IMG/VR virus record: IMGVR_UViG_3300008050_000371
Location: 1 to 22,016 of that record
Direction: 5' to 3' (one strand)
Origin: a virus
DNA: 22,016 nucleotides
In this document: positions 2,393 through 18,022 of the stretch, piece after piece
Layout of the letters: every line of letters starts with the position of its first letter
Numbering within the stretch: the first letter of the stretch is position 1
Notes under the pieces: generated by a model
Told to the model about the DNA's origin: nothing
The model's input: the letters and a program-made list of their open reading frames with translations, nothing else
Database searches by the model: none
Program-made: the position numbers and the translations under genes

Positions 2393-4960
2393 ATGTCTCA
2401 CGAGCCAGGCCACAAAGAAGAAACGACAGAAGATCCAGATCCGATTGAAAATGAAGATGATTCTGCATCCGAAGCAAGATTTCAAGAACAATGTTTTTTA
2501 ATGCGCGCCCTAGTTTCTCACGGGCTAGGAAGGCGCCTTAAAAACCCTACACAAAAATATAAAAATTTCATTAAAGTTTCTTCAAGCGATCCAGCTCTAG
2601 TTATGAGCCAGCTGACAACGACCAAGGGCGCCGATGAACTTCTAGATATTACCGATAAAGAATTGGCATTTTTACAGCCAATGATAAGAATATTTAAAGT
2701 CTCTGAAGAGGAGGGCCAAACGACTGAGGTTGAATATAGATTTGATGAAGGTTCTTTTCATCAGGCCGGCCCAGGCCAGTCGATATCTATTTTCGACGAT
2801 AGAGATACTCGCGGCGCTGAGGTCGGCTTACAGAGTGTGAGCTTCGAATGGATGGGCACGCAGCCTGCTGAAGTTACAAACAATATTCGCTGTTCGATGA
2901 CTTTATTTTTTCAGAATTTATCTGCTTTAACAACAAAACGAGCGGCCCCTGACGGTACTGAATATAGCTACGCTGATTTAATTTTACGCCCTCCAGGCTA
3001 TAAAGGGGTTACACAGTATAAGCCAGAACACTATAGAATAAAATTGATTGTCGGCTGGGCAAGGCCACCCATTGGTGCAGACATCCGCCCAGAAGTAAGA
3101 GACGCGCTTATAAGAACAAGGACTGTGTTAAATCTTACTTTGAAAAATCATACTTTTAGTTTTAACATGGATGGCACCGTAACCATGGAAATTGAATATC
3201 ATGCTTGGGCTGAGGGCGCCATGTCACACCCAGCAACTGATATATTTTATCCAGAGGCCAAAGACGCACAAAAGATCAAGCAATTGGATGCCGCTGAAGA
3301 TTATTCTAAAAAGCAGAAGAGGGCGCTGCAAGGCAAGACCTCCGGCACCGGCGGGAGCCCTCCCGATCCACCTCCTGACGATCCACCAGAACCTTCAGAC
3401 GCGGAAGAACAAATTGATGACAATATAACCTCCCTTCGTGAAAGACGAAATCAGATTAAACGCGCCAATAGGGCCAAGGCGTATCGCCGTTTGGTAAACA
3501 TGCTTTTAGAAAGCTCGGATTCTAATATATATTATATTGATGCATCGGCCGCCCAGCTTGGAAAGCTTGGTGGAGATCCAGACGATCAAGCGAAAAGGAG
3601 CGCTTCATCTAAAGTTAACAAAAGTAAGTGCAAGGACTTGGTTGCCGATACTTCTATTAACGGACAGCCCAGCATGGGTAAGATGCCTTCTGGCACAACT
3701 GCTGCCAATAAATCTCTTGACGACACCATCGACCACGTCGCCAATACAGGCGAAGGAAATTGGTTTGGCCCGTGGACGGCTAGTGACAACAATGACATTG
3801 CCGACGCCGCCAACGAGTCGTTGCGAACTTTAAAGCCAGAAATGTCTCCAAAAGGTGGCGGTACTTTGCGTGTGAACTATTTTTATTTTGGCGACTTGCT
3901 TAATGTGTGTTTAAAAATACTCAGAGGTGGCTCCAGCACCAAAGGAGATTCTTTTCCAGGTAGTGCTGAATATAAAGCATCCCCGGCTAGTAAAGTTTCA
4001 ATAATGTGCGGCCCAGTGTATATAACTAATCCATGTACCGGCGAGGCAACGCCTATTAACATTGCAGATATACCGATATCATTAAATCTTTTTACAGCTT
4101 GGTTTACTAACACGGTTATACGAAAACAGGTAGATACATATTTATTAAGAACTTTTGTTAATGATGTGATAGGAACGCTTCTTCCTGCGGCTCTAGGAGA
4201 GGGTTGTGTAGAGGGCGGTGGACAGAGCGTCGTGAAAATTATGGCCAATGTGCTAACAGTACGCGGCGACGGATCCCCCACCGCTCCCTTCAAGCCAGGT
4301 GATGTTGTAGATGTCAATGCCATAACAGAGAAAATGCAGGGTGTTGATTGGACAGGACCCATTGGTGCTAAAAAGACCTATGATTATTTATTCTTATATG
4401 CTACTGGCTTTTCACCTAATTGGCTCGGCGGGGATAAAGAAAAAGATAGAGCAAATGGTATATATCATTTTTCCATCGGCGCAGACCGCGGCCTAATTAA
4501 AAAATTCGAATTTACTAAGAACGATGCGCCTTATCTGGGGGAAGCTAAAGTCACAGGCGAGAATAATATTGCAAATGATCTTGGTGGAGGAGGTATATAC
4601 CACTGTAAGGCTGATTTAATTGGCAATAGTTTGTTTGTTCCCGGGCAATATATATTTGTTAATCCTGCGGCGATGGGGATCGGCCATCCTGCTGCTGATG
4701 GCACCGGCGGTATGGAACACTCTATAGCTAATCGAATTCGCCTGGGTGGATACTATTTTATACACAAAGTAGAGAGTACTCTCGAAAGAGGCAATTTTAC
4801 AACTGCAATTGAAGCAAAGTGGGAGTCCGGCGGCGGAAAATCTGCGAAGCCCCCACCCACTCCGGCCCAAAGCTTGTCCTCAGCGTTAACTGAGGAAGCC
4901 AAGGCTGGCTTTGCAGATGCGACCGTCGATGAAGACGACTATACAAACCCAGGAGGATAA
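2393..4960 (+). CDS. Large baseplate hub-like virion protein
   Basis: This 855-residue protein is the largest complete gene in the window. The SD GGAG (2383-2386) overlaps the stop of the previous gene. The acidic N-terminus is followed by a beta-rich domain to about residue 285. A Pro/Asp-rich linker at about 320-340 (SPPDPPPDDPPEPSD) comes next. The C-terminal part includes PFKPGDVVDV, SLFVPGQYIFVNPAAMG, RLGGYYFIHKVES and FTTAIEAKWES. The pattern 'PGQY-x-valine/isoleucine-NP ... LGGYY-x-hydrophobic-xKV ... F-x-T-x-(I/V)-x-A' is what I associate with C-terminal domains of baseplate hub proteins (gp27/gpD-like). No lysozyme motif is visible. It is most likely the hub or another central baseplate protein. 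The hub assignment is by pattern and context. Confidence 0.45.
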   Translation: MSHEPGHKEETTEDPDPIENEDDSASEARFQEQCFLMRALVSHGLGRRLKNPTQKYKNFIKVSSSDPALVMSQLTTTKGADELLDITDKELAFLQPMIRIFKVSEEEGQTTEVEYRFDEGSFHQAGPGQSISIFDDRDTRGAEVGLQSVSFEWMGTQPAEVTNNIRCSMTLFFQNLSALTTKRAAPDGTEYSYADLILRPPGYKGVTQYKPEHYRIKLIVGWARPPIGADIRPEVRDALIRTRTVLNLTLKNHTFSFNMDGTVTMEIEYHAWAEGAMSHPATDIFYPEAKDAQKIKQLDAAEDYSKKQKRALQGKTSGTGGSPPDPPPDDPPEPSDAEEQIDDNITSLRERRNQIKRANRAKAYRRLVNMLLESSDSNIYYIDASAAQLGKLGGDPDDQAKRSASSKVNKSKCKDLVADTSINGQPSMGKMPSGTTAANKSLDDTIDHVANTGEGNWFGPWTASDNNDIADAANESLRTLKPEMSPKGGGTLRVNYFYFGDLLNVCLKILRGGSSTKGDSFPGSAEYKASPASKVSIMCGPVYITNPCTGEATPINIADIPISLNLFTAWFTNTVIRKQVDTYLLRTFVNDVIGTLLPAALGEGCVEGGGQSVVKIMANVLTVRGDGSPTAPFKPGDVVDVNAITEKMQGVDWTGPIGAKKTYDYLFLYATGFSPNWLGGDKEKDRANGIYHFSIGADRGLIKKFEFTKNDAPYLGEAKVTGENNIANDLGGGGIYHCKADLIGNSLFVPGQYIFVNPAAMGIGHPAADGTGGMEHSIANRIRLGGYYFIHKVESTLERGNFTTAIEAKWESGGGKSAKPPPTPAQSLSSALTEEAKAGFADATVDEDDYTNPGG

Positions 4961-4964
4961 GCAC

Positions 4965-6320
4965 ATGTCTTATAAGAAAAAAATTGCTGAGACTAAAGAG
5001 CCTCAAGACTACAAGGGCAATCGATTTTCAGAATATCTTGCTAAGAACCGCACTGATTCTAACGAGAAGCTTTTTGAAAGTCGAAAGTATTATCGTGATG
5101 CTGCATTTGAAAAAGAATTTTTAAAAAACAAAAATCCAATTAATTTCTGGACAGGGAAAATGGGAGCTTATTACGGAAAAGTTAATTTTGACGAAGAGCC
5201 AGTTTATATTAATGAACATTATCTTAAACAATATAAATCTGATCAAACGTTTTTTGGTCTCGCCCCGGTTGTTGAAGCCTTTACTGATATGACTGAGCAC
5301 ATAAAACAAAACCAGCTGAATTTAGGTGGACTTTCTGGAGGCGCCAAAAGTATTTTCAGGCGCGCCAAGCCCAAGGGAGGCTGGGAATCTTTAAATGGTA
5401 ATTATTCTAAATATTTACAAGATTTAGGTATGGCTTTCGTCAGGAAATATCTGACTCCGGCTAAAGAAAAAAGAATTCGAGATTTTAAAACTTTTTTAAC
5501 TGTTTTTACTGAATTCGTAACCAGTGGATTTTTGGGAGAGATGCCGTTAACGTTAACCGGTTACATGCGTTCAAGATTTTGTAACCCTAGAGTAAGTGGA
5601 TTGGTTGTAGAGGTGTTTGATGCAGAATATGACAATGACGTTATTAAAAAGGGGTTTTTAGAAGATCCTGGTTTAGATTTTTGGGTGGAGACTGCGGAAA
5701 AGTTTGGATTTTTTGTCGATAAAAATGCGCCATGGCGACTGACAGCTAATATAACATATAGTACTGCGATGGGTCGGTATATGTCTAAGCATGGGGTACC
5801 ATATGGCGCACATAATAGAAAAAAAATATTTAATAGATTTTATAGAAGAGCTTACGATATAGAGATACCTGTTATGCAGCATTATTTGGCGGAGATATAT
5901 AATAACTACGTTAATAGCCGACCGACGATTGCTGTTGCTAGCTTAAAACAATATTGTGTCGCCGGCAATCCCTTACTAAAAAATAATTACAATAGAGTTA
6001 CTAGCGTTGAGACAGTTAGAAGAGAGTCTATGGACTGCTTTGTTAACAGAAGATTGAATCCTGCTAGTACCTATTCCCAAGAATATGGTGAACTTTTTTG
6101 GATTCGTTACTATTATAACTTGAGAATGCTTGAAGAAAAAAAGGCAATCGATACCGCTATTTTAAACGCAGATTTTCGCAAGCGTCTTCATCCTTATTAT
6201 CGAGTGCATGGCCTTGTGCCCACGATCAGAGCGATAAATCAAGAGCTGAATCGTACGCCAACTCATGCCCCACGCGTGACTCGCGAATTAAAACAAGCAT
6301 ATTATAAACGACGGAAGTAA
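4965..6320 (+). CDS. Conserved phage protein of unknown function, 451 aa
   Basis: The frame is open from 4911, but the start at 4965 is chosen because AGGAGG (4951-4956) stands 8 bases before it; the upstream ATG lies inside the preceding gene. The product is basic and rich in Tyr, Phe, Arg and Asn, with no signal peptide or membrane helix. A block near residues 205-275 includes YMRSRFCNPRVSGLVVEVFD, FLEDPGLDFW, KFGFFVDKNAPWRLTANI. I associate this NxPWRL-type block with uncharacterised proteins of marine myoviruses. The C-terminus is strongly basic (ELKQAYYKRRK). It lies at the junction between structural and replication genes, so it could be a virion protein or a DNA-associated factor. No function can be assigned. 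Confidence 0.6.
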   Translation: MSYKKKIAETKEPQDYKGNRFSEYLAKNRTDSNEKLFESRKYYRDAAFEKEFLKNKNPINFWTGKMGAYYGKVNFDEEPVYINEHYLKQYKSDQTFFGLAPVVEAFTDMTEHIKQNQLNLGGLSGGAKSIFRRAKPKGGWESLNGNYSKYLQDLGMAFVRKYLTPAKEKRIRDFKTFLTVFTEFVTSGFLGEMPLTLTGYMRSRFCNPRVSGLVVEVFDAEYDNDVIKKGFLEDPGLDFWVETAEKFGFFVDKNAPWRLTANITYSTAMGRYMSKHGVPYGAHNRKKIFNRFYRRAYDIEIPVMQHYLAEIYNNYVNSRPTIAVASLKQYCVAGNPLLKNNYNRVTSVETVRRESMDCFVNRRLNPASTYSQEYGELFWIRYYYNLRMLEEKKAIDTAILNADFRKRLHPYYRVHGLVPTIRAINQELNRTPTHAPRVTRELKQAYYKRRK

Positions 6321-6323
6321 TCA

Positions 6324-7511
6324 TTGATTTTTCAAACTTTAGATGACAAGCACATGTGCCCGGCAGTCTACGCTGATGGACAGATAATAAAAGAAAATTT
6401 TCCAAAACAATTAAGCCAGACGTGGTGTTATTCTTCTTTTTTGAGAGATATGCAGGTCGACTACGCTCAATTATATTGTGAAGGAAAATCTTTAGACGAA
6501 GTATGTCCTGAAAATTTAAGGCCTAGGTGGGACAAAGTCTCACTGAAGCTTAAGGCTTTTTTGCGTTCCTTTCAGGAATCTAAGATCGACCTACAGCAGC
6601 ACTGCTTCTTTGATCTGGTACCACAAAGTTTTCTTTTAGAATTCTGTGAAATAAAAAACGATATCACAAATCACGTTTTCCAAAATTTTTTGCGGCCCAA
6701 AAATTACAGATTTTTGCTTTCCCTGACAAAGCTGATTGACGATATAAAATATCGTGAATTGAATATTGATTATGAGCTGCTAGAGGCCAACATGGCAAAT
6801 TATCGAATTCGCCAACTAAAGAAAAAAGTTGAAAAGAACCGTTTTATCAAATATAATATTTTTGGTACCAAAACGGGAAGGCTTACAACCACCAAAGACA
6901 GCTTTCCTATATTGACGCTCGATAAGAAATACCGCTCGCTTTTAAAGCCCAACAATGATTGGTTCATCGAGCTAGATTTTAATGCAGCCGAGATTCGGAC
7001 TTTTCTATCTCTGGCCGGAAAACCTCAACCCGAAGATGATATACACGCCTGGCTTGGAAAAGCCGCTTTTAATGGCGAATGCGATAGAGAAATGATCAAG
7101 AAAAATGTTTTTGCTTGGTTATACAACCCTAGTGCTAAGAACGAATATTTAGACAAAATATTTGATAAAAATAAGGTAATTTTGGACCACTATGCCAATA
7201 ATATTGTTGTGAATCCTTATGAGCGCAAAATAAACTCTGATATGCACCATGCTTTGAATTATTTAATACAGAGCACGACTAGCGATATATTATTGAGGCG
7301 CATGATCGCCATATCAGAAAAACTTAAAGAAAGAAAGACATTCGTGGCCTTCAGCATTCACGATAGTGTTATTCTTGATTTTAGTGATGAGGACCGAGAA
7401 ATCCTTTTGTCTATTATTGAAGAATTCTCTAACACTGAGTTGGGAAGGTTTAAAGCCAATATAAGTGTAGGAAAAGATTTTGGAAATATGAGGAATTTGA
7501 TGGTAAAATAA
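6324..7511 (+). CDS. Compact family A DNA polymerase, polymerase domain only
   Basis: The start is TTG at 6324, supported by GGAAG (6313-6317) 6 bases upstream. The 395-residue product carries the family A polymerase motifs in order: TGRL at 184-187; motif A LDFNAAEIR with Asp218, steric-gate Glu223 and Arg225; motif B REMIKKNVFAWLY with Arg255, Lys259, Phe263 and Tyr267 at the E. coli R754/K758/F762/Y766 spacing; NYLIQSTTSD with Gln316; motif C IHDS with His346 and Asp347. Phe263 and Glu223 indicate dNTP rather than rNTP use. Motif C has Ser348 where the family has Glu. Only about 180 residues precede TGRL, so there is no room for the usual exonuclease domains. A separate 5'-3' exonuclease gene lies at 12433. 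Likely roles are primer processing, gap filling or bulk synthesis. Confidence 0.88.
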   Translation: MIFQTLDDKHMCPAVYADGQIIKENFPKQLSQTWCYSSFLRDMQVDYAQLYCEGKSLDEVCPENLRPRWDKVSLKLKAFLRSFQESKIDLQQHCFFDLVPQSFLLEFCEIKNDITNHVFQNFLRPKNYRFLLSLTKLIDDIKYRELNIDYELLEANMANYRIRQLKKKVEKNRFIKYNIFGTKTGRLTTTKDSFPILTLDKKYRSLLKPNNDWFIELDFNAAEIRTFLSLAGKPQPEDDIHAWLGKAAFNGECDREMIKKNVFAWLYNPSAKNEYLDKIFDKNKVILDHYANNIVVNPYERKINSDMHHALNYLIQSTTSDILLRRMIAISEKLKERKTFVAFSIHDSVILDFSDEDREILLSIIEEFSNTELGRFKANISVGKDFGNMRNLMVK

Positions 7512-7981: not shown

Positions 7982-8827
7982 ATGGAAACAATAATCGGTT
8001 TAGGTAGCGCAGGCTGTAATATCGCCGAGAAGTTCATGCAATATCCTCAATATGATGTATATCGTATTGATTCTGAGAAACGTAAGGGCTCTAAATTTAA
8101 GAAAATTCCCGAACGAGAGACCCATGAAGAATATGAGGCGAAATTTCCATCTTTAAAAACATTCTTCAAAGATGCCAAGCCCCCGTATTTATTTGTTGTT
8201 GGTGGATCCGGAACAATATCAGGCGCCACACTTCGTGTTCTAGAACAGTTAAATAGCAGTGATTTGTATGTTTTATACATAAAATCAGATACATTGTTGA
8301 TGTCTAGATCACGCCAGATGCAAGATAGAGTAGTATTTCAAATTCTGCAACAATATGCACGCTCTGTCAGGCTTAAGCGTATGTTTATCATTGATAATTC
8401 AATTCTTGAAAATATATATAAAGATATCCCTGTTGTTGGCTATTATGATAAACTAAACGACGTAATAGTCAGCACTATACATATGATTAATGTATTCAAC
8501 AACACAAAATCAATCATGGACACTTTTTCTAGCCCTGTAGAGACGGCTAGAATATCAACCTTTGGGATAGTTGACATCGAGTCCGGTGAAGAAAATTTAT
8601 TTTATGACTTGACTTATCCTCGCGAGAAGTTATATTATTACTCGATGACGAAAAAACGACTTGAAACTGAAGGGAATCTTCTTAAGAGGATAACAGGACA
8701 AGTTAAAGACAAGATACAAGATGAAATGAAAGTATCTTACGGGATTTATTCTAGTACATACGAGCAGGACTACGCTTATTGTGTGGCGCATGCTACTTTG
8801 GTACAAGAACAAAAAGCCCTTGACTAA
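7982..8827 (+). CDS. Divergent FtsZ/tubulin-superfamily protein
   Basis: The product has 281 residues. Its N-terminus, IIGLGSAGCNIAEKF, matches the FtsZ T1 nucleotide loop (GxGGxGxN): Gly6, Gly8, Gly11, Asn13. GSGTISGA at residues 75-82, after the strand YLFVV, matches the tubulin/FtsZ signature GGGTGTGA with Ser and Ile replacements. The following order also fits FtsZ: strand LYVLYIKSD, helix with RQMQDRVVFQIL, strand MFIIDNSILENI (compare FtsZ IVIPND-type), then YYDKLNDVIVSTIHMINVF (compare the FtsZ helix containing AD-x-VL). The T7 catalytic loop NxDxxD is not clearly kept; MDTFSS at about 179 may correspond. It is shorter than FtsZ (about 380 residues) and the phage tubulin PhuZ (about 315). 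The SD is weak (TAGAG). It may be a cytoskeletal filament protein or a non-polymerising relative; a different Rossmann-like GTP-binder is the alternative. Confidence 0.55.
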   Translation: METIIGLGSAGCNIAEKFMQYPQYDVYRIDSEKRKGSKFKKIPERETHEEYEAKFPSLKTFFKDAKPPYLFVVGGSGTISGATLRVLEQLNSSDLYVLYIKSDTLLMSRSRQMQDRVVFQILQQYARSVRLKRMFIIDNSILENIYKDIPVVGYYDKLNDVIVSTIHMINVFNNTKSIMDTFSSPVETARISTFGIVDIESGEENLFYDLTYPREKLYYYSMTKKRLETEGNLLKRITGQVKDKIQDEMKVSYGIYSSTYEQDYAYCVAHATLVQEQKALD

Positions 8828-8847: not shown

Positions 8848-8908
8848 ATAGTTAACCTAGATGTTCGGGAGATTAGCCGAATATACTTTAATAATAGGAG
8901 AAGTAATT

Positions 8909-9661
8909 ATGGGTATTGATATGAAGAAGATGAGGGAGAAGCTCACCACCCTCCAAAGCAAAGGTGACCGCAAGTCAGATCTTTTCTGGCGTCCGTCAGA
9001 CGGAGAGCAGACAATTCGAATCGTTCCAACTCCCGATGGAGATCCGTTCAAGGAGTTTTGGTTCCATTATGATGTGGGCAATAATCCTGGTTTCCTTAGT
9101 CCGAAGAGGAATTTTGGCGAGGATGATCCCCTTGATTCATTTGTGCGCCAGCTATGGAAGGAGGGATCCGAAGATAGCATTAAGATGGCTAAGAAGCTTT
9201 CTGCACGTCAGCGTTTCTTTTCACCCGTGATTGTACGCGGCGAGGAAGACAAGGGTGTCCGTATCTGGGGATATGGGAAGATGGCTTATCAGGAGCTATT
9301 GAATCTGGTGCTTAACCCTGATTACGGTGACATTACTGACACTGATGAAGGTACGGATTTGGTGCTTACTTATGGCAAGCCTCCAGGGGCACAATTTCCA
9401 CAGACCAATCTGACTCCTCGCCGAAAGGCTTCACCGATGATGCCGTCTGAGGAGAAAATCGGACAGATGTTGAATTCGATTCCTGACTACTCAACTTTGT
9501 TTGAGCGTAAGACTCCAGAGCAGGTTCAGTCCATGCTTGATGAGTTCTTGCTCGGCGAAGACGATGCTGAAGAAACTTCACACGAGTCGAAGAAGTACAA
9601 GAGCAAGCCGGCTTCTGGTGATAATGCAGTTGATAAGGCTTTTGCGGAACTACTAACGTAG
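8909..9661 (+). CDS. T4 gp32-like single-stranded DNA-binding protein
   Basis: The start at 8909 is preferred over an in-frame ATG at 8861 because AGGAG (8896-8900) precedes it and the upstream codons lie in the promoter's leader. The 250-residue product begins MGIDMKKMREKLTTLQ. It then has the gp32 core pattern: FWRPSDGEQTIRIVPTPDGDP, FHYDVG, KRNFGEDDPL, a basic stretch near residue 85, and RIWGYGKMAYQELL. An acidic segment (LLGEDDAEE) lies near the C-terminus. In T4, gp32 coats ssDNA and recruits UvsX, gp41 and polymerase, all of which have counterparts here. The protein has no cysteine at all, so the zinc site found in T4 gp32 is absent. The order ssb-uvsX is consistent with recombination-dependent replication. 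Confidence 0.8.
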   Translation: MGIDMKKMREKLTTLQSKGDRKSDLFWRPSDGEQTIRIVPTPDGDPFKEFWFHYDVGNNPGFLSPKRNFGEDDPLDSFVRQLWKEGSEDSIKMAKKLSARQRFFSPVIVRGEEDKGVRIWGYGKMAYQELLNLVLNPDYGDITDTDEGTDLVLTYGKPPGAQFPQTNLTPRRKASPMMPSEEKIGQMLNSIPDYSTLFERKTPEQVQSMLDEFLLGEDDAEETSHESKKYKSKPASGDNAVDKAFAELLT

Positions 9662-9733: not shown

Positions 9734-10855
9734 ATGGCCAAAAAGGCAAGTAAAATTGGTAGATTAAATTTAACTGAGATGCGCAATCTCATTAATAAGA
9801 AAGTGGGTACCAACTTGGCCCATGATCTTCGCGGCGATAATCCAACTCAAGTTAAAGATTGGATTCCGACAGGCTCAAGATGGTTAGACAGTATGATATG
9901 TCGCGGCCAGCTAGCTGGGATTCCAATGGGCAAAATTGTAGAGATTGCTGGCTTAGAAAGCAGTGGCAAATCTTATATGGCCGCGCAGATTGCTGCCAAT
10001 GCCCAAAAAAAAGATATTGATGTAGTTTATTTCGATTCAGAATCAGCAATCGACCCTGGCTTTTTAGAAAGCGCAGGTTGCGAATTAGATAGGCTATTAT
10101 ATGTACAGGCTCAGAGCGTCGAATTTGTTTTAGAAACAATTGAGGAGCTAATAGGATCGAATGAGAATCGCATGCTTTTCATTTGGGATAGCTTAGCCTT
10201 GACACCGGCTATCAGCGACGTTGATGGCGACTTCAATCCACAGTCTTCAATGGCAGTCAAAGCTAGAATATTATCAAAAGCCATGTCAAAGTTGACAGTG
10301 CCAATTGCTAATTCTGGATCGACATTACTAGTTTTGAACCAACTTAAGACTAATATTACGAATAACGTTGCAGAAGCTATGACGACACCGTATGTGACTC
10401 CTGGCGGCAAAGCGCTAACATACGCATATTCATTGCGTATTTGGCTTACTGGGCGCAAGGCGAAAGCTTCGTTCGTGAAAGATGACCGAGGATATCGAAT
10501 CGGATCCGAGGTTAAATGTACTTTAAAGAAAAGCCGGTTTGGTACACAGGGCCGGCAATGCACATTTAAAATTTTATGGGGTGGAGATGTTTTTATCCAA
10601 GATGAAGAGAGTTGGTTTGAAGCTATTAAGGGCTCAGAGAACATTGAACAAAAAGGCGCGTGGTATAATCTTATTCATAAAGATGGAACATCAGAAAAGT
10701 TCCAGGCGTCGAAGTGGAAAGAAAAATTAAAAAATGAAAAGTTTCGAAATCGGGTCTTGCAAATCATGGATGAAGAAGTGATTATGAGATTCGAAGAGAG
10801 ATCTGGCGATGCAGCCAGCTTCTATGACATTGATAAGGAGGAAGAAAATGCATGA
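9734..10855 (+). CDS. uvsX: UvsX/RecA-type recombinase
   Basis: The product has 373 residues, a normal length for UvsX. AGAGGA stands 6 bases before the ATG. The Walker A loop GLESSGKS is at 73-80. The strand VVYFDSESAIDP follows at about 95-106. A Walker B-type strand MLFIWDSLAL is near 146-155, and the L2 region with TPGGKAL is near 224-230. This ATPase forms filaments on ssDNA and catalyses strand exchange, driving recombination-dependent replication and repair in T4. It acts with the gp32-like protein encoded just upstream. The last 8 bases overlap the start of the next gene. RadA-like and other RecA-fold ATPases are less likely given the length and the conserved E-S-S-G-K-S loop. The host RecA-like ancestor cannot be separated from UvsX without alignment. 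Confidence 0.88.
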   Translation: MAKKASKIGRLNLTEMRNLINKKVGTNLAHDLRGDNPTQVKDWIPTGSRWLDSMICRGQLAGIPMGKIVEIAGLESSGKSYMAAQIAANAQKKDIDVVYFDSESAIDPGFLESAGCELDRLLYVQAQSVEFVLETIEELIGSNENRMLFIWDSLALTPAISDVDGDFNPQSSMAVKARILSKAMSKLTVPIANSGSTLLVLNQLKTNITNNVAEAMTTPYVTPGGKALTYAYSLRIWLTGRKAKASFVKDDRGYRIGSEVKCTLKKSRFGTQGRQCTFKILWGGDVFIQDEESWFEAIKGSENIEQKGAWYNLIHKDGTSEKFQASKWKEKLKNEKFRNRVLQIMDEEVIMRFEERSGDAASFYDIDKEEENA

Positions 10856-12088: not shown

Positions 12089-12436
12089 ATGGAAACGGTT
12101 TCATTAAAGAATTTAGTTCGCGAATATGTAGTTAGTAAAATGTTCGAAGCAATTGTCAATCTTGACTCTGATAGGACACAAAACCTTACGGCTCTTTTAG
12201 ATCAGTTACGTGGTGTTTGTGGTATTACTGTTGTCACAGTGTTAGAACCTGCAAGGCCTCTCTCACAAGCAAGAGAACAAACAAAGATTAAGTGTAAGTT
12301 CTTACAGACTCACCCAAGCCTAAATATACATATAAAGACTATGAGGGCAGCTGCTAAACAGCTTCCTGGCATCTATTCCTTTCGTGTGATGAGTGTAGAT
12401 CAAATTGAAACCAAAGAAAAACCGAGGACGTCTTGA
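12089..12436 (+). CDS. Small alpha/beta protein with N-terminal helical tag
   Basis: The start at 12089 is chosen because GGAG (12076-12079) stands 9 bases upstream; the ATG at 12074 contains that SD and has none of its own. The product has 115 residues. It opens METVSLKNLVREYV, similar to other tag-like N-termini here. The remainder reads like a small ferredoxin- or ACT-like sandwich: helix LTALLDQLRGVCG, strand ITVVTVLEP, strand KIKCKFL, helix IKTMRAAAKQLPG, strand SFRVMSVDQI. Such domains often bind small ligands, RNA or partner proteins. No catalytic residues stand out. The stop overlaps the TTG start of the exonuclease gene, so the two are translated together. Function unknown. Confidence 0.6.
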   Translation: METVSLKNLVREYVVSKMFEAIVNLDSDRTQNLTALLDQLRGVCGITVVTVLEPARPLSQAREQTKIKCKFLQTHPSLNIHIKTMRAAAKQLPGIYSFRVMSVDQIETKEKPRTS

Positions 12437-13404
12437 AACAAAAGAAGCGTTTGCTGGTAATAGACCAGCTAAATTTATTTTTTAGATCCTATATTGTTAA
12501 TCCCTCTCTCTCCACTGACGGCCAGCCCGTTGGCGGGCTCGTAGGAGTTATTAAATCTCTACAGAAAATTTGTAGAGAAGTCAACCCTGACAAGGTTATT
12601 ATTTGTTGGGACGGCGAAGGCGGCTCTAAAAAGCGAAAGCTGATGAAAAAGGACTACAAAGCCGGCCGCAAACCAATTCGCCTTAACAGGGACATACGTA
12701 CTCTTTCTGAGTCAGAAGAAAGAAGCAATAAGGTTTGGCAGCTTGAAAGGGTAATGGAATACCTTAATCACATGCCAGTGATTCAGTTCATGTATCGAGG
12801 CATCGAGGCAGACGATGTTATTGCATATGTGTGTGGGCTTAAAGAATACAAGAGTTGGCAAAAAGTCATTGTATCGAGCGATAAAGATTTCTTCCAGCTT
12901 TTAGATGATGAAACGGTATTGTACCGGCCCATACAAAAGAAGATCTTGAACAAATATAAGCTGATAGAAGAATTCAATATTCATCCTAGAAACTTTGCAA
13001 TTGCCAGAGCTATGGTCGGCGATCGATCGGATAACCTAGCCGGCGTGGGAAATGTGGGCCTTCCATCAGCTGCAAAAAGATTTCCATTCTTAAAGGACGA
13101 CAGGTCGGCAACTGTTGCTGAGGTCTTAGAATTTTGTAAAGAAGCCCTTAGCGAGAAGAAGCTAAAAATTTATGAAAACGTTATCAACAATAAAGACGTT
13201 TTTGAAAGAAACTATCAAATGATGCAACTTTATACTCCTAGTTTAAGCATTAATGCAAAAAAAGAAATAAGAGAAACTTTGAAAAATGCTGACTTGTCTT
13301 TCAATAAGACTGGCGTGGTCACCATGATGGTGCGCGATGGGTTCGATGACCTAGACTGGCGCGAGCTTCAGGCATTTTTTCGAAGATTAGCCCTAGACAA
13401 CTAG
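12433..13404 (+). CDS. FEN-type 5'-3' exonuclease / flap nuclease (T4 RNase H-like)
   Basis: The start is TTG at 12433, overlapping the upstream TGA and preceded by GAGGA. The nuclease fold begins at once (RLLVIDQLNLFFRSY, Asp11), so no later start fits. The product has 323 residues, usual for T4 RNase H and for the 5' nuclease of DNA polymerase I. Acidic metal-site motifs: ICWDG (Asp60), GIEADDVIAYV (Glu125, Asp127, Asp128), VSSDKDFFQLL (Asp150, Asp152) and the helix-hairpin region GDRSDNLAGVGNVG (Asp197, Asp200). The enzyme removes RNA primers and flaps from lagging-strand fragments. It supplies in trans the 5' nuclease that the family A polymerase at 6324 lacks. The promoter for the helicase gene overlaps its 3' end. 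Confidence 0.87.
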   Translation: MKQKKRLLVIDQLNLFFRSYIVNPSLSTDGQPVGGLVGVIKSLQKICREVNPDKVIICWDGEGGSKKRKLMKKDYKAGRKPIRLNRDIRTLSESEERSNKVWQLERVMEYLNHMPVIQFMYRGIEADDVIAYVCGLKEYKSWQKVIVSSDKDFFQLLDDETVLYRPIQKKILNKYKLIEEFNIHPRNFAIARAMVGDRSDNLAGVGNVGLPSAAKRFPFLKDDRSATVAEVLEFCKEALSEKKLKIYENVINNKDVFERNYQMMQLYTPSLSINAKKEIRETLKNADLSFNKTGVVTMMVRDGFDDLDWRELQAFFRRLALDN

Positions 13405-13440: not shown

Positions 13441-14808
13441 ATGTCTACAAGTGTAACTTTTTCTAAGTATGGCAAGGCCTTTCAAGAGACCTTAGCACAT
13501 CTTATCTTAGAAGATCGTCCCTTCGCCGATCAAATGAGCGAGGTATTAAACATCAATTTTTTTGAGCTTAAGTACTTGCGCGTTTTTGTTGACAAGATTT
13601 TTGGCTATAAGAAGAAGTATGATGTCCAGCCGGGTAAGAAAGTCATATCTACTATTTTGAGGGTGGAATTAGAACAAGAAAACGACGCGGTACAAAAACA
13701 AGTAAGAGACTACTTTGCCCGTATCTGTGTTAACAAAATATCTGATGTCGATTATGTTAAAGAAACTGCACTAGATTTTTGCAAAAAACAAAAACTGAAA
13801 GAGGCCATGGTAAAGTCTGTAGAACTATTACAATCTTCGTCTTTTGATGAAATCAAAAATGTAATTGATACCGCACTTAAGCTTGGCTTGGATAATAATT
13901 TTGGCCATGATTACAAAAAAGATTTCGAAGCTAGATATCAATTGATATCACGCAACCCAATTGCGACTGGCTGGAATGTTGTTGATAAGATCTGTCGCGA
14001 CGGCCTGGGCAAAGGGGAATTAGGGGTGGTGATTGCACCAACTGGAGCTGGCAAATCTATGGTGTTGGCACACCTAGGATCCTCTGCTCTTAAGAAGGGC
14101 ATGCATGTAGTCCACTATACCCTGGAATTGTCAGAAGAATCGATCGGCCAGAGATATGATAGTTGTTTGACCGGCGTACATTTAAGCGAGCTGTTTTCGA
14201 AAAAAGAACAAGTTCACGAAGAATGTATTGATATTCCAGGTGAACTAACTATCAAGGAATATCCGACTAAATCAGCCTCGGTGAATACGCTCCGAGCGCA
14301 TTTAGAAAAAATAAAAAAATCTGATCAAAAAATCGATATGATTATAGTAGATTACGCTGATTTACTACGTAGTGGGGCAAATTACAAGGAGAAAAGACAT
14401 GATCTGGAGTCTATTTATGAGAGTCTACGTGCTATAGCACAAGAAAATGAATGTCCCTTGTGGACCGCCTCACAAACAAACAGGTCAGGGTTAAATGCTG
14501 AAGTCATTACCATGGAGTCCATATCAGAAGCTTTTAATAAATGTTTTGTCGCAGATTTTATTTTCTCGCTGTCGAGAACAGTCAAAGACAAGACCGCCAA
14601 TTCAGGTAGGTTATTTATAGCGAAGAACAGAAATGGCCCTGATGGTATTGTTTTTCCTATTTTTATGGATCCATCACGCGTCAAAATTGATGTATTTGAA
14701 ACAACGGGCGAGACCGTGGCCGATATAAAAATGGAAAGCGCTAAGAAAGAAGTTCAGGATTTGAAAGAGAGATACAAAAAGTTTAGGCAAAATGGAGGAA
14801 AGAATTAA
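13441..14808 (+). CDS. DnaB/T4 gp41-like replicative helicase
   Basis: The product has 455 residues, close to T4 gp41 (475). The SD is GGAG, 5 bases upstream. The N-terminal 160 residues are helical, as in the DnaB N-domain. The RecA-like motor follows: Walker A APTGAGKS at 199-206, HYTLELSEE (catalytic Glu region) at about 225-233, Walker B MIIVDYADLL with Asp304, then ASQTNRSG (motif H4-type, with the sensor Gln) and RLFIAKNRNGPDG with a possible arginine finger region. It should form a hexamer unwinding the fork 5' to 3' on the lagging strand. No primase gene is seen in the window. The end overlaps the ribonucleotide reductase start by one base, so helicase and reductase share an operon. 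Confidence 0.87.
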   Translation: MSTSVTFSKYGKAFQETLAHLILEDRPFADQMSEVLNINFFELKYLRVFVDKIFGYKKKYDVQPGKKVISTILRVELEQENDAVQKQVRDYFARICVNKISDVDYVKETALDFCKKQKLKEAMVKSVELLQSSSFDEIKNVIDTALKLGLDNNFGHDYKKDFEARYQLISRNPIATGWNVVDKICRDGLGKGELGVVIAPTGAGKSMVLAHLGSSALKKGMHVVHYTLELSEESIGQRYDSCLTGVHLSELFSKKEQVHEECIDIPGELTIKEYPTKSASVNTLRAHLEKIKKSDQKIDMIIVDYADLLRSGANYKEKRHDLESIYESLRAIAQENECPLWTASQTNRSGLNAEVITMESISEAFNKCFVADFIFSLSRTVKDKTANSGRLFIAKNRNGPDGIVFPIFMDPSRVKIDVFETTGETVADIKMESAKKEVQDLKERYKKFRQNGGKN

Positions 14809-16664
14809 TGGAACTACCTAGCACAATCTTATCGGATATAACCGTATACATGAAGTACGCGCGTTACTTGCCGCGAAAAAAGAGACGCGAGACATGGAGG
14901 GAACTAGTTACTCGCAACAAAAAGATGCATATTAAGAAATATCCGGATCTTAAAGAGGAGATTGAGGTGGCCTATAGGTACGTTTATGATAAAAAAGTTT
15001 TACCATCTATGCGATCGATGCAGTTTGGCGGCAAGCCAATTGAAGTGGCTCCTAACCGGATTTATAACTGCGCTTATCTTCCTATTGATCATCGTGCTTC
15101 TTTCAGTGAGTGCATGTTTCTCTTGCTTGGTGGAACTGGTGTCGGATACTCTGTCCAGAAGCACCATGTTGAAAAGCTACCAGAAATACAGAAGCCGAAT
15201 ACAAAAAGAACGAGAAGGTTTCTTGTTGCTGATTCAATCGAGGGCTGGGCAGATTCAGTCAAAGCGCTAGTAGAATCTTATTTTAAAGGCGGATCAAAGT
15301 TACGTTTTGACTTTTCTGATATCCGTGCTAAAGGTTCACGACTAGTTACTAGTGGAGGCAAGGCCCCGGGCCCGCAGCCTCTTAAGGAATGCCTTGTCAA
15401 ATTGCAGGGTATATTAGAAGAAAAAGAAAACGGAGATAAACTTGAGCCCATTGAAGTCCACGATATTATTTGTCATATTGCTGATGCCGTTCTCGCTGGC
15501 GGGATACGTCGCGCTGCTCTCATATCGTTATTTTCAGCCGATGATGAAGAAATGCTTGCAGCAAAGGCGCAAAACTGGTGGGAAAGTAACCCCCAAAGGG
15601 GAAGAGCAAACAACTCAGTCGCCCTGATGCGACACAGGATCACGAAAGAATATTTTGAAGAGTTGTGGGAGAGAGTTAAAACTTCCGGCTCTGGAGAGCC
15701 TGGTTTCTATTTTACCAATGATAAAGATTGGGGTACCAACCCCTGTTGTGAAATAGCCTTAAGGCCATATCAGTTTTGTAATTTGGTGGAAGTCAACGCA
15801 TCAGACCTAGAAAACCAAGAAGACTATAATGACAGGGTGAAGGCCGCTTCTTTTATAGCTACTCTTCAGGCTGGATATACTGATTTTCATTATTTGAGAG
15901 AGGTATGGCGTAGAAACACTGAAAAAGATGCCTTAATAGGCGTTTCGATGACTGGAATCGCTTCTGGTAGGGTCTTGGAACTGGACATGAAGAAAGCCTC
16001 TTCGATAGTTAAAAAAGAAAATATTAGAGTTTCGAAATTAATAGGAATCAATCAGGCCTCTAGAACAACATGTGTTAAGCCGGCCGGAACCACCTCCTTG
16101 ACGCTGGGTACCTCCAGTGGAATCCACGCGTGGCATAATGATTGTTATATACGAAGGATCAGGGTGGGAAAGAACGAGCCAATCTATACACACTTGTTAA
16201 TACACCACCCTGAGTTGGTTGAAGACGAATATTTTAGGCCGCACGATACCGCTATCATATCAGTACCACAGCGCGCCCCCGAAGGCGCCATAACTCGCAA
16301 CGAGAGTGCTCTGCAACTACTTAAAAGAATAAAATCAGTTAATGAGCAGTGGGTCAGGCCAGGCCATCACCGTGGACAGAATACTCACAATGTTTCTGCA
16401 ACAATATCAATTCGTCCTGCTGAGTGGACTGACGTAGGAGAGTGGATGTGGGAAAATCGCAATTGTTATAACGGCTTGGCTGTATTGCCATATTCTGATC
16501 ACAACTATAAGCAAGCACCCTTTGAAGATTGTTCACCAGAAAAGTATCAAGTACTTTATGAGGCTCTCAACGAGGTTGATTTGGCGAAGATTGTTGAATA
16601 CGAGGATGATACTAATTTGACAGGCGAATTAGCATGCTCCGGCGGAGCATGTGAAATTATATAA
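14808..16664 (+). CDS. nrdJ: Class II (B12-dependent) ribonucleotide reductase
   Basis: The product has 618 residues. GGAGG (14794-14798) stands 9 bases upstream, inside the helicase gene. The sequence fits the monomeric adenosylcobalamin-dependent enzyme (Lactobacillus RTPR type): IYNCAYLPI with Cys88, NPCCEIALRPYQFCNLVEVN (residues 311-330) with Cys313 as the likely thiyl radical site and Cys324 as the redox partner of Cys88, then CVKPAGTTSL and a C-terminal CSGGAC pair (Cys610, Cys615) that re-reduces the active site. It is about 120 residues shorter than the 739-residue Lactobacillus enzyme, as expected for compact phage forms. It makes deoxyribonucleotides without oxygen or a second subunit but needs host cobalamin. 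The second Cys in NPCCE, where Gly is usual, is a small oddity. Confidence 0.92.
   Translation: MELPSTILSDITVYMKYARYLPRKKRRETWRELVTRNKKMHIKKYPDLKEEIEVAYRYVYDKKVLPSMRSMQFGGKPIEVAPNRIYNCAYLPIDHRASFSECMFLLLGGTGVGYSVQKHHVEKLPEIQKPNTKRTRRFLVADSIEGWADSVKALVESYFKGGSKLRFDFSDIRAKGSRLVTSGGKAPGPQPLKECLVKLQGILEEKENGDKLEPIEVHDIICHIADAVLAGGIRRAALISLFSADDEEMLAAKAQNWWESNPQRGRANNSVALMRHRITKEYFEELWERVKTSGSGEPGFYFTNDKDWGTNPCCEIALRPYQFCNLVEVNASDLENQEDYNDRVKAASFIATLQAGYTDFHYLREVWRRNTEKDALIGVSMTGIASGRVLELDMKKASSIVKKENIRVSKLIGINQASRTTCVKPAGTTSLTLGTSSGIHAWHNDCYIRRIRVGKNEPIYTHLLIHHPELVEDEYFRPHDTAIISVPQRAPEGAITRNESALQLLKRIKSVNEQWVRPGHHRGQNTHNVSATISIRPAEWTDVGEWMWENRNCYNGLAVLPYSDHNYKQAPFEDCSPEKYQVLYEALNEVDLAKIVEYEDDTNLTGELACSGGACEII
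16633..16651 (+). other. Perfect hairpin at the end of nrdJ
   Basis: CATGCTCC (16633-16640) and GGAGCATG (16644-16651) form an eight-base-pair stem with a GGC loop. It covers the codons of the C-terminal CSGGAC redox pair. No T-run follows, so it is not a normal intrinsic terminator. It may slow RNA decay or be a by-product of the coding sequence. Confidence 0.5.
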
Positions 16665-17269: not shown

Positions 17270-18022
17270 ATGGATTTGAAGCAATTGAGGAATTTAATTA
17301 GTGAAACAATAAACTCTGATTCTGTTTTGTTAGCCAAGCCATTATTGAAAGAAATGACCTTTAATCGTGCCAAAAAGCACATTGAAAAAGAGGCGGTTGA
17401 ATTCGTGATGATCAGCGCATATCGTGGCGGTAAGGATAATCCTGGCAATCGCGTACGGCATAAAGAAATGAAATCTGCCTTTAAGGATGCCGGCTTTCCT
17501 TTTGTCGACATGCTTGGAGGATATTCAGAGGAAGAGCATGGTGACGTTTCAGAACCATCTTTATTAGTATTGGGGTATGCCAGGCCAGATTTCAAGGACG
17601 AGCGCGTTGAGGGACTTTTTCAATTAGCAGCGCAGTTAAGTAAAAATTATCAGCAGGATAGTTTCATATACGGCGCCCCCGCAAAGACTTCATCTGGAGA
17701 TGCGGCCTTATTTGATGATCCTAAAACAGGCGAACTTAGGCCGATTATGGATATTCGGGCATACGATAACCACGGAGAATCCATCGGCGAGCCATGGGCC
17801 GGCCCTTGGAACAATTTGGTTACGGCGAAAGAGGATGATGTATATTGGTCAGTTGTGGCCGGGAAAAAAGGAAAGCTTGTTGAAACTCGCGCGCGCTACA
17901 CCAAATTTATCCCCCTTAAACGAGAAGATGCAATGAAGAAAGATCACTATCTTAAATCAACACGCGCTGGAATTAAATTCTTAGAAAAGAGATTAAATGA
18001 AAGAAAAGAACATCGCAGTTGA
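17270..18022 (+). CDS. DUF3293-like protein with N-terminal helical tag
   Basis: The product has 250 residues. GAGGAG (17256-17261) stands 8 bases upstream. It opens MDLKQLRNLISETI, a tag-like start shared with other genes here, then LLKEMTFNRAKKHIEKE. The core EFVMISAYRGGKDNPGNRVR, a short helix, FVDMLGGYSEE, SLLVLGY and a Q-x-SFIYG strand matches what I recall of DUF3293: 'TA..P....N' then 'E.s.lV.G' then 'Q.a'. That family has no assigned function. The second half contains WAGPWNNLVTA and an RARY segment. The last 26 bases overlap thyX. There is no signal peptide or membrane segment. Confidence 0.6.
   Translation: MDLKQLRNLISETINSDSVLLAKPLLKEMTFNRAKKHIEKEAVEFVMISAYRGGKDNPGNRVRHKEMKSAFKDAGFPFVDMLGGYSEEEHGDVSEPSLLVLGYARPDFKDERVEGLFQLAAQLSKNYQQDSFIYGAPAKTSSGDAALFDDPKTGELRPIMDIRAYDNHGESIGEPWAGPWNNLVTAKEDDVYWSVVAGKKGKLVETRARYTKFIPLKREDAMKKDHYLKSTRAGIKFLEKRLNERKEHRS

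Follow-up and report, generated by a model that had tools for sequence, protein, structure and literature searches.

The locus and its gene order

The stretch of DNA analysed here (the window) has a length of 22,016 nt and corresponds to positions 1-22,016 of the IMG/VR record IMGVR_UViG_3300008050_000371. An open reading frame for a protein of 281 residues lies on the same strand as its neighbours, downstream of a gene for a family A DNA polymerase (polA) and upstream of one for a gp32-like ssDNA-binding protein (SSB), and its product is referred to below as the window tubulin (Table 1). A first-pass annotation had described it as a phage gene beside replication genes, which is supported; the length of the reading frame and the motifs GLGSAGCN (residues 6-13) and GSGTISGA (residues 75-82) were also found as described. 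After the SSB gene the order is UvsX, dCMP deaminase, exonuclease, DnaB and ribonucleotide reductase.

Table 1. Genes of the replication block and features of the tubulin gene (window coordinates).
Feature	Coordinates	Strand	Basis
Family A DNA polymerase, 395 aa, upstream neighbour	6324..7511	+	PHROG 17, E 3.5e-16; synteny
Tubulin/FtsZ-superfamily protein, 281 aa, ATG start	7982..8827	+	AlphaFold2 fold and profile match
T1 phosphate loop, residues 5-15, IGLGSAGCNIA	7994..8026	+	Profile-aligned to FtsZ T1
T4 phosphate loop, residues 74-82, GGSGTISGA (FtsZ GGGTGTGA)	8201..8227	+	Profile alignment
R127-S128, end of helix H4	8360..8365	+	R127 in 161/161, S128 in 160/161 members
N139, aligned with E. 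coli FtsZ N165 (guanine contact)	8396..8398	+	Profile alignment
N159 in core helix H7, aligned with E. coli FtsZ N186 (guanine contact)	8456..8458	+	Profile alignment
HMINVFNN, C-terminal half of H7, family signature	8480..8503	+	Conservation
T7-equivalent stretch, residues 174-190, without conserved Asp/Glu (FtsZ NxDxxD)	8501..8551	+	Conservation
gp32-like ssDNA-binding protein, 33 nt downstream of the tubulin gene	8861..9661	+	PHROG 1192, E 4e-24; synteny
UvsX-like recombinase	9734..10855	+	PHROG 97
5'-3' exonuclease	12433..13404	+	PHROG 107
DnaB-like helicase	13441..14808	+	PHROG 19
Ribonucleotide reductase	14808..16664	+	PHROG 367

IMG/VR was searched with the SSB and polA proteins, and not with the tubulin, and the contigs showing both were kept, which resulted in 125 loci. 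The tubulin gene was present in 125 of these 125 loci, some of which share a contig, and the order was always polA-tubulin-SSB; due to the fact that the loci are the best-scoring relatives, this statement applies to the present clade. The median gaps in the block were -4 nt (stop-to-stop frames) and 69 nt, and the genes were located on the same strand in 145 of 145 cases. This synteny is evidence of co-inheritance and not of physical contact. Among cultured phages, the replication block has its closest relatives in Flavobacterium immuto (MW353175) and Microcystis Mel-JY01 (PP395634), neither of which has a tubulin gene; a check for a hidden one between their polA and SSB genes found none.

Two further features of the surroundings were recorded. 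Just upstream of polA, window positions 4911-6320 encode a 469-aa protein with counterparts in almost every related contig (20-35% identity). The G+C content of the SSB gene is 47%, compared with 36% in polA and tubulin.

Sequence family and carrier phages

The window tubulin has at least 285 relatives in IMG/VR. Single-sequence searches gave no convincing Pfam, PHROG or PDB match, tblastn with three family members against INPHARED (50,697 annotated phage records) yielded no convincing relative, and PDB sequences searched with the family profile returned nothing, despite the clear fold described below. The present assignment names a protein left blank by PHROGs v4. All conservation counts refer to 161 non-redundant family members, and an alignment of 55 family sequences (A2) was the input to AlphaFold2 and to the FtsZ profile comparison. 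Strong purifying selection acts on the family, with NG86 dN values of approximately 0.03-0.16 against dS values of 0.5-2.5 in close pairs.

The family is carried by uncultured bacterial viruses of T4-like type, most of them marine. One tubulin copy was present in each of ten long contigs (101-204 kb); a T4-type gp23 capsid protein was found in all ten and a sheath match in nine. Searches for the phiKZ shell protein (chimallin) and for the multisubunit RNAP family gave no match in these ten long, possibly incomplete contigs, with a positive phiKZ control; the query of the shell search was one protein, the reach of which extends to close relatives only. A T4-type sliding clamp was likewise not found in the ten contigs, in a search run without a positive phage control.

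Two matches from outside this group were rejected. The Methanoperedens match is an archaeal FtsZ-family protein and not a family member, and a match in a WOR-3 MAG (CP070664.1, labelled chromosome) was discarded as a host link: the polA, tubulin, SSB and UvsX genes there belong to a phage piece flanked by N runs within a scaffolded record, and this piece is therefore likely a mis-scaffolded phage contig. One further record (G007:57602-58432) shows a single in-frame TAG inside the tubulin match, which may be a sequencing error, a break or stop recoding.

Fold and superfamily placement

The AlphaFold2 model of the window tubulin, built from the 55-sequence alignment, reached a pLDDT of 94 and a pTM of 0.91. 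Its secondary-structure elements follow one another as in the tubulin superfamily, and it contains a core helix of 20 residues (154-173) as well as a C-terminal alpha/beta domain. All 50 of the 50 matches listed by Foldseek against the PDB were FtsZ, TubZ or tubulin (E approximately 1e-12 to 1e-10), and the VIA-align Z-scores were 24.5 for CetZ, 23.8 for TubZ and 21-22 for tubulin and FtsZ, with about 259-278 residues aligned. These structural matches span residues 1-281 and cover both H7 and the C-terminal domain. Among the five best matches in BFVD are phage proteins, 10-15% identical, whose annotations read FtsZ, cell-division protein or tubulin.

Independently of the model, the A2 profile was aligned by hhalign to the FtsZ profile over residues 3-167 with P of approximately 1e-5 to 1e-4, and the score of 39-46 was above 100 of 100 column-shuffled controls, the highest of which reached 28. 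FtsZ (TIGR00065) was also the NCBIfam family matched by most members, namely 12 of 55, with a best E of 0.00028 and a score of 13.2 bits, which is below the curated cut-off of 295.2. Since the structural matches and the profile match agree, membership of the full-length protein in the tubulin/FtsZ superfamily is secure, and the divergent FtsZ/tubulin fold proposed from the sequence is borne out over the whole length by FtsZ, TubZ, CetZ and tubulin matches. The placement is by fold and homology, and the protein is not classed as an active GTPase.

The alternative of an unrelated Rossmann-type protein, the GxGxxG of which merely resembles FtsZ, could draw on the blank single-sequence searches and on weak TrkA_N matches (best E 0.001). 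However, it would have to account for a structural match over the whole length including H7 and the C-terminal domain, for leading matches that all belong to the tubulin superfamily and for an FtsZ profile score that exceeds every shuffled control. The first-pass annotation had named two grounds for giving up the assignment, another fold or a better Rossmann match; both were looked for and neither was found, so that this reading is largely refuted and very improbable.

Predicted nucleotide-binding site and T7 region

Within the T1 loop, G6, G8, G11 and C12 are nearly invariant in the family. The T4 signature GGGTG[TS]G is replaced at the same place by a degenerate form, GGSGxISG, which agrees with the altered signature noticed previously. 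The counterparts of E. coli FtsZ N165 and N186, the positions that contact guanine in the superfamily, are kept in 151 (N139) and 152 (N159) of the 161 members, and the canonical members are predicted on this basis to bind GTP.

The reported loss of the NxDxxD loop was substantiated, as none of the columns within residues 171-190 is acidic in more than 65% of the 161 members. D180 lies in the T7 stretch and might have stood in for the catalytic acid, but this was rejected because the residue is not conserved. The AlphaFold2 model has no helix H8. Two catalytic aspartates are borne by the T7 loop of FtsZ, as described in PMC8936486, where the role of loop T6 is also given. R127 and S128 probably lie on the face away from the nucleotide, judging from the helix direction in the superfamily, and the residues at the ends of H1, H4 and H7 should occupy the face opposite the nucleotide, where FtsZ contacts the next subunit.

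The pocket has been lost in a part of the family. G77 is replaced by E or D in 11 of the 161 members, nine of which lack both N139 and N159 and one more of which lacks N139 only. The nine that lack both asparagines span several lineages, and approximately five losses were counted by parsimony, at least three of them forced by supported branches. Co-loss of G77, N139 and N159 is expected if the three serve one ligand; the formal test, with few independent events, was not significant. Y24, L84, Q123, R127 and S128 are retained in the degenerate members, and H167 in most of them. In a degenerate pair dN was still far below dS, and the predicted fold of one degenerate member was the same, from an alignment which included canonical members. 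The pocket was repeatedly and secondarily lost with retention of other residues.

Relation to described tubulins

The phage tubulins known so far belong mainly to nucleus-forming jumbo phages and to partition systems, and their GTP hydrolysis drives motion. FtsZ (TIGR00065 / PF00091) has the whole-length fold, T1, T4, the guanine-contacting asparagines, H7 and the C-terminal domain in common with the window protein. In contrast to FtsZ, to which it is about 10-19% identical, the window protein has the changed T4 loop, neither NxDxxD nor H8, and no C-terminal linker or FtsA/ZipA-binding peptide, its end lying about 10 residues past the last strand of the C-terminal domain in the model; the family gene, moreover, sits in a phage replication block. 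PhuZ (phiKZ gp39, 201phi2-1 gp59) is likewise a small phage-encoded protein of tubulin fold, but hhalign against phiKZ PhuZ gave a probability of 0.9%, that is, no profile similarity. The catalytic aspartate D190 and the extended C-terminal tail of PhuZ (PMC4244570) are both missing from the family, and the shell and RNAP genes that form the phiKZ background of PhuZ were not found in the ten long contigs. TubZ (Bacillus plasmids and phages) and CetZ (archaea), which had the best structural Z-scores, differ from the family by an identity of 12-18% and by the T7 acid that the family lacks. The partners of TubZ are TubR, which is difficult to recognise from sequence, and iterons (tubC); no iterons were found in the window near the tubulin gene. 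Four phage FtsZ/tubulin-like proteins in BFVD (A0A6J5RW92, A0A8S5UFG9, A0A8S5USZ9 and A0A513PW51), the first of which is the closest by Foldseek (E 2.8e-12), have the same fold but are longer (321-452 aa) and 10-15% identical.

The family is distinct from PhuZ, TubZ and FtsZ proper, and the earlier suggestion of a branch apart from PhuZ and TubZ was upheld. No description of this branch was found in the open-access papers searched. Tubulins outside nucleus-forming phages had already been glimpsed, since an FtsZ homologue was reported in 2020 in a circular phage contig without a nuclear-shell protein (PMC7452251). Phage tubulin as a kind is already known; the branch is new in its sequence, its setting and the state of its active site. 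It is separate and widespread, and its place in the replication block is fixed in T4-like phages without detected phiKZ-type nucleus genes.

Possible role in phage replication

The reading tentatively favoured here, which leads the others while falling short of probable, is that of a GTP-binding, canonically non-hydrolysing tubulin whose stable oligomers or filaments scaffold or anchor the phage replication complex. Most family members would bind a guanine nucleotide, and canonical hydrolysis of GTP would fail, since the T7 loop, which completes the active site of the neighbouring subunit, no longer has its acids. The tubulin would be made together with polymerase and SSB and would assemble into stable oligomers or filaments comparable to those of catalytically dead PhuZ D190A; these assemblies, with the conserved residues located on the assembly or partner face, may then serve as scaffold or anchor. 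PhuZ D190A, without its T7 aspartate, still requires GTP, has a tenfold lower critical concentration, shows no turnover and forms stable, GTP-dependent filaments (PMC4244570). Loss of the T7 acids may also result in no filament at all, since D210N and D213N suppress assembly of S. aureus FtsZ (PMC8936486), and by analogy the family could follow either path. That the two cultured phages with the most closely related replication block manage with no such gene also speaks against the favoured reading.

Two observations favour a stable GTP-loaded scaffold: the gene is co-inherited with polA and SSB, and some members have lost the pocket although other residues remain fixed. A non-filamentous replisome accessory is placed next, and a dynamic filament or a poison of FtsZ is considered less likely. 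It is possible, if doubtful, that the protein is a pseudo-GTPase scaffold and a constitutive part of the phage replisome, in which the surface facing polA and SSB, and not the nucleotide cycle, is under selection and the site is repeatedly lost.

As a non-filamentous replication accessory, the protein would be a monomer or small oligomer which binds polymerase or SSB via its conserved residues and acts as a subunit for processivity, loading or regulation; GTP would then be either a switch or a ligand with a structural role. This is unlikely but has to be taken seriously in view of the strict polA-tubulin-SSB synteny, of a pocket that is dispensable in some lineages with other residues fixed, of the lost T7 acids and of a model without H8 or C-terminal tail; the T4-type sliding clamp not found in the ten long contigs, although searched for without a positive phage control, points in the same direction. 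However, family A phage polymerases often function without a clamp, and we know of no tubulin-superfamily protein in such a role. A dynamic, PhuZ- or TubZ-like cytomotive filament which positions or segregates phage DNA is quite unlikely, and would call for hydrolysis by non-canonical residues, e.g. R127, H167 and N170/N174 in place of the T7 aspartates. Superfamily membership, the retained guanine contacts and the strong conservation of the C-terminal half of H7 and of the H4 end are consistent with such a filament, whereas the T7 region without a conserved acid, the loss of the pocket in several lineages, a search beside the gene that found neither iterons nor an obvious tubC, and a model without a PhuZ-like C-terminal tail argue against it. 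Positioning of virions in the manner of PhuZ, which the first-pass annotation had suggested, is less likely as well, because the gene is located in the replication block and not with late genes, phiKZ-type shell and RNAP genes were not found, and the catalytic aspartate that makes PhuZ dynamic is missing.

Poisoning of host division by an FtsZ mimic, through co-assembly with or capping of host FtsZ, had been raised on the same occasion; it gained no specific support and is improbable. FtsZ is the NCBIfam family that most members match, but identity to it is low, and the gene is fixed inside the replication block and not among variable host-takeover genes. The FtsZ poisons known so far, moreover, are small proteins unrelated to FtsZ. 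That phage inhibitors of FtsZ exist, such as lambda Kil and P1 Icd, speaks for the mimic.

If the favoured stable scaffold does support replication, the tubulin fold would be tied directly to a replisome, and the natural series of members with an intact pocket, without catalysis and without a pocket could be used to probe the function of the fold free of GTPase activity.

Other observations in the window

At window positions 17270-18022 a match to the S-adenosylmethionine lyase family was obtained (PF23780, E 1.4e-7, above cut-off), and the protein starts with a short MDLKQLRNLISETI-type stretch. S-adenosylmethionine lyases can counter host defences. Similar short helical motifs (e.g. MKITKEKLKKLIQEE) are located at the N-terminus of three window proteins (7538, 12074 and 17270), and a protein of a Microcystis phage (L100:6628-7914) has such a motif at its C-terminus.
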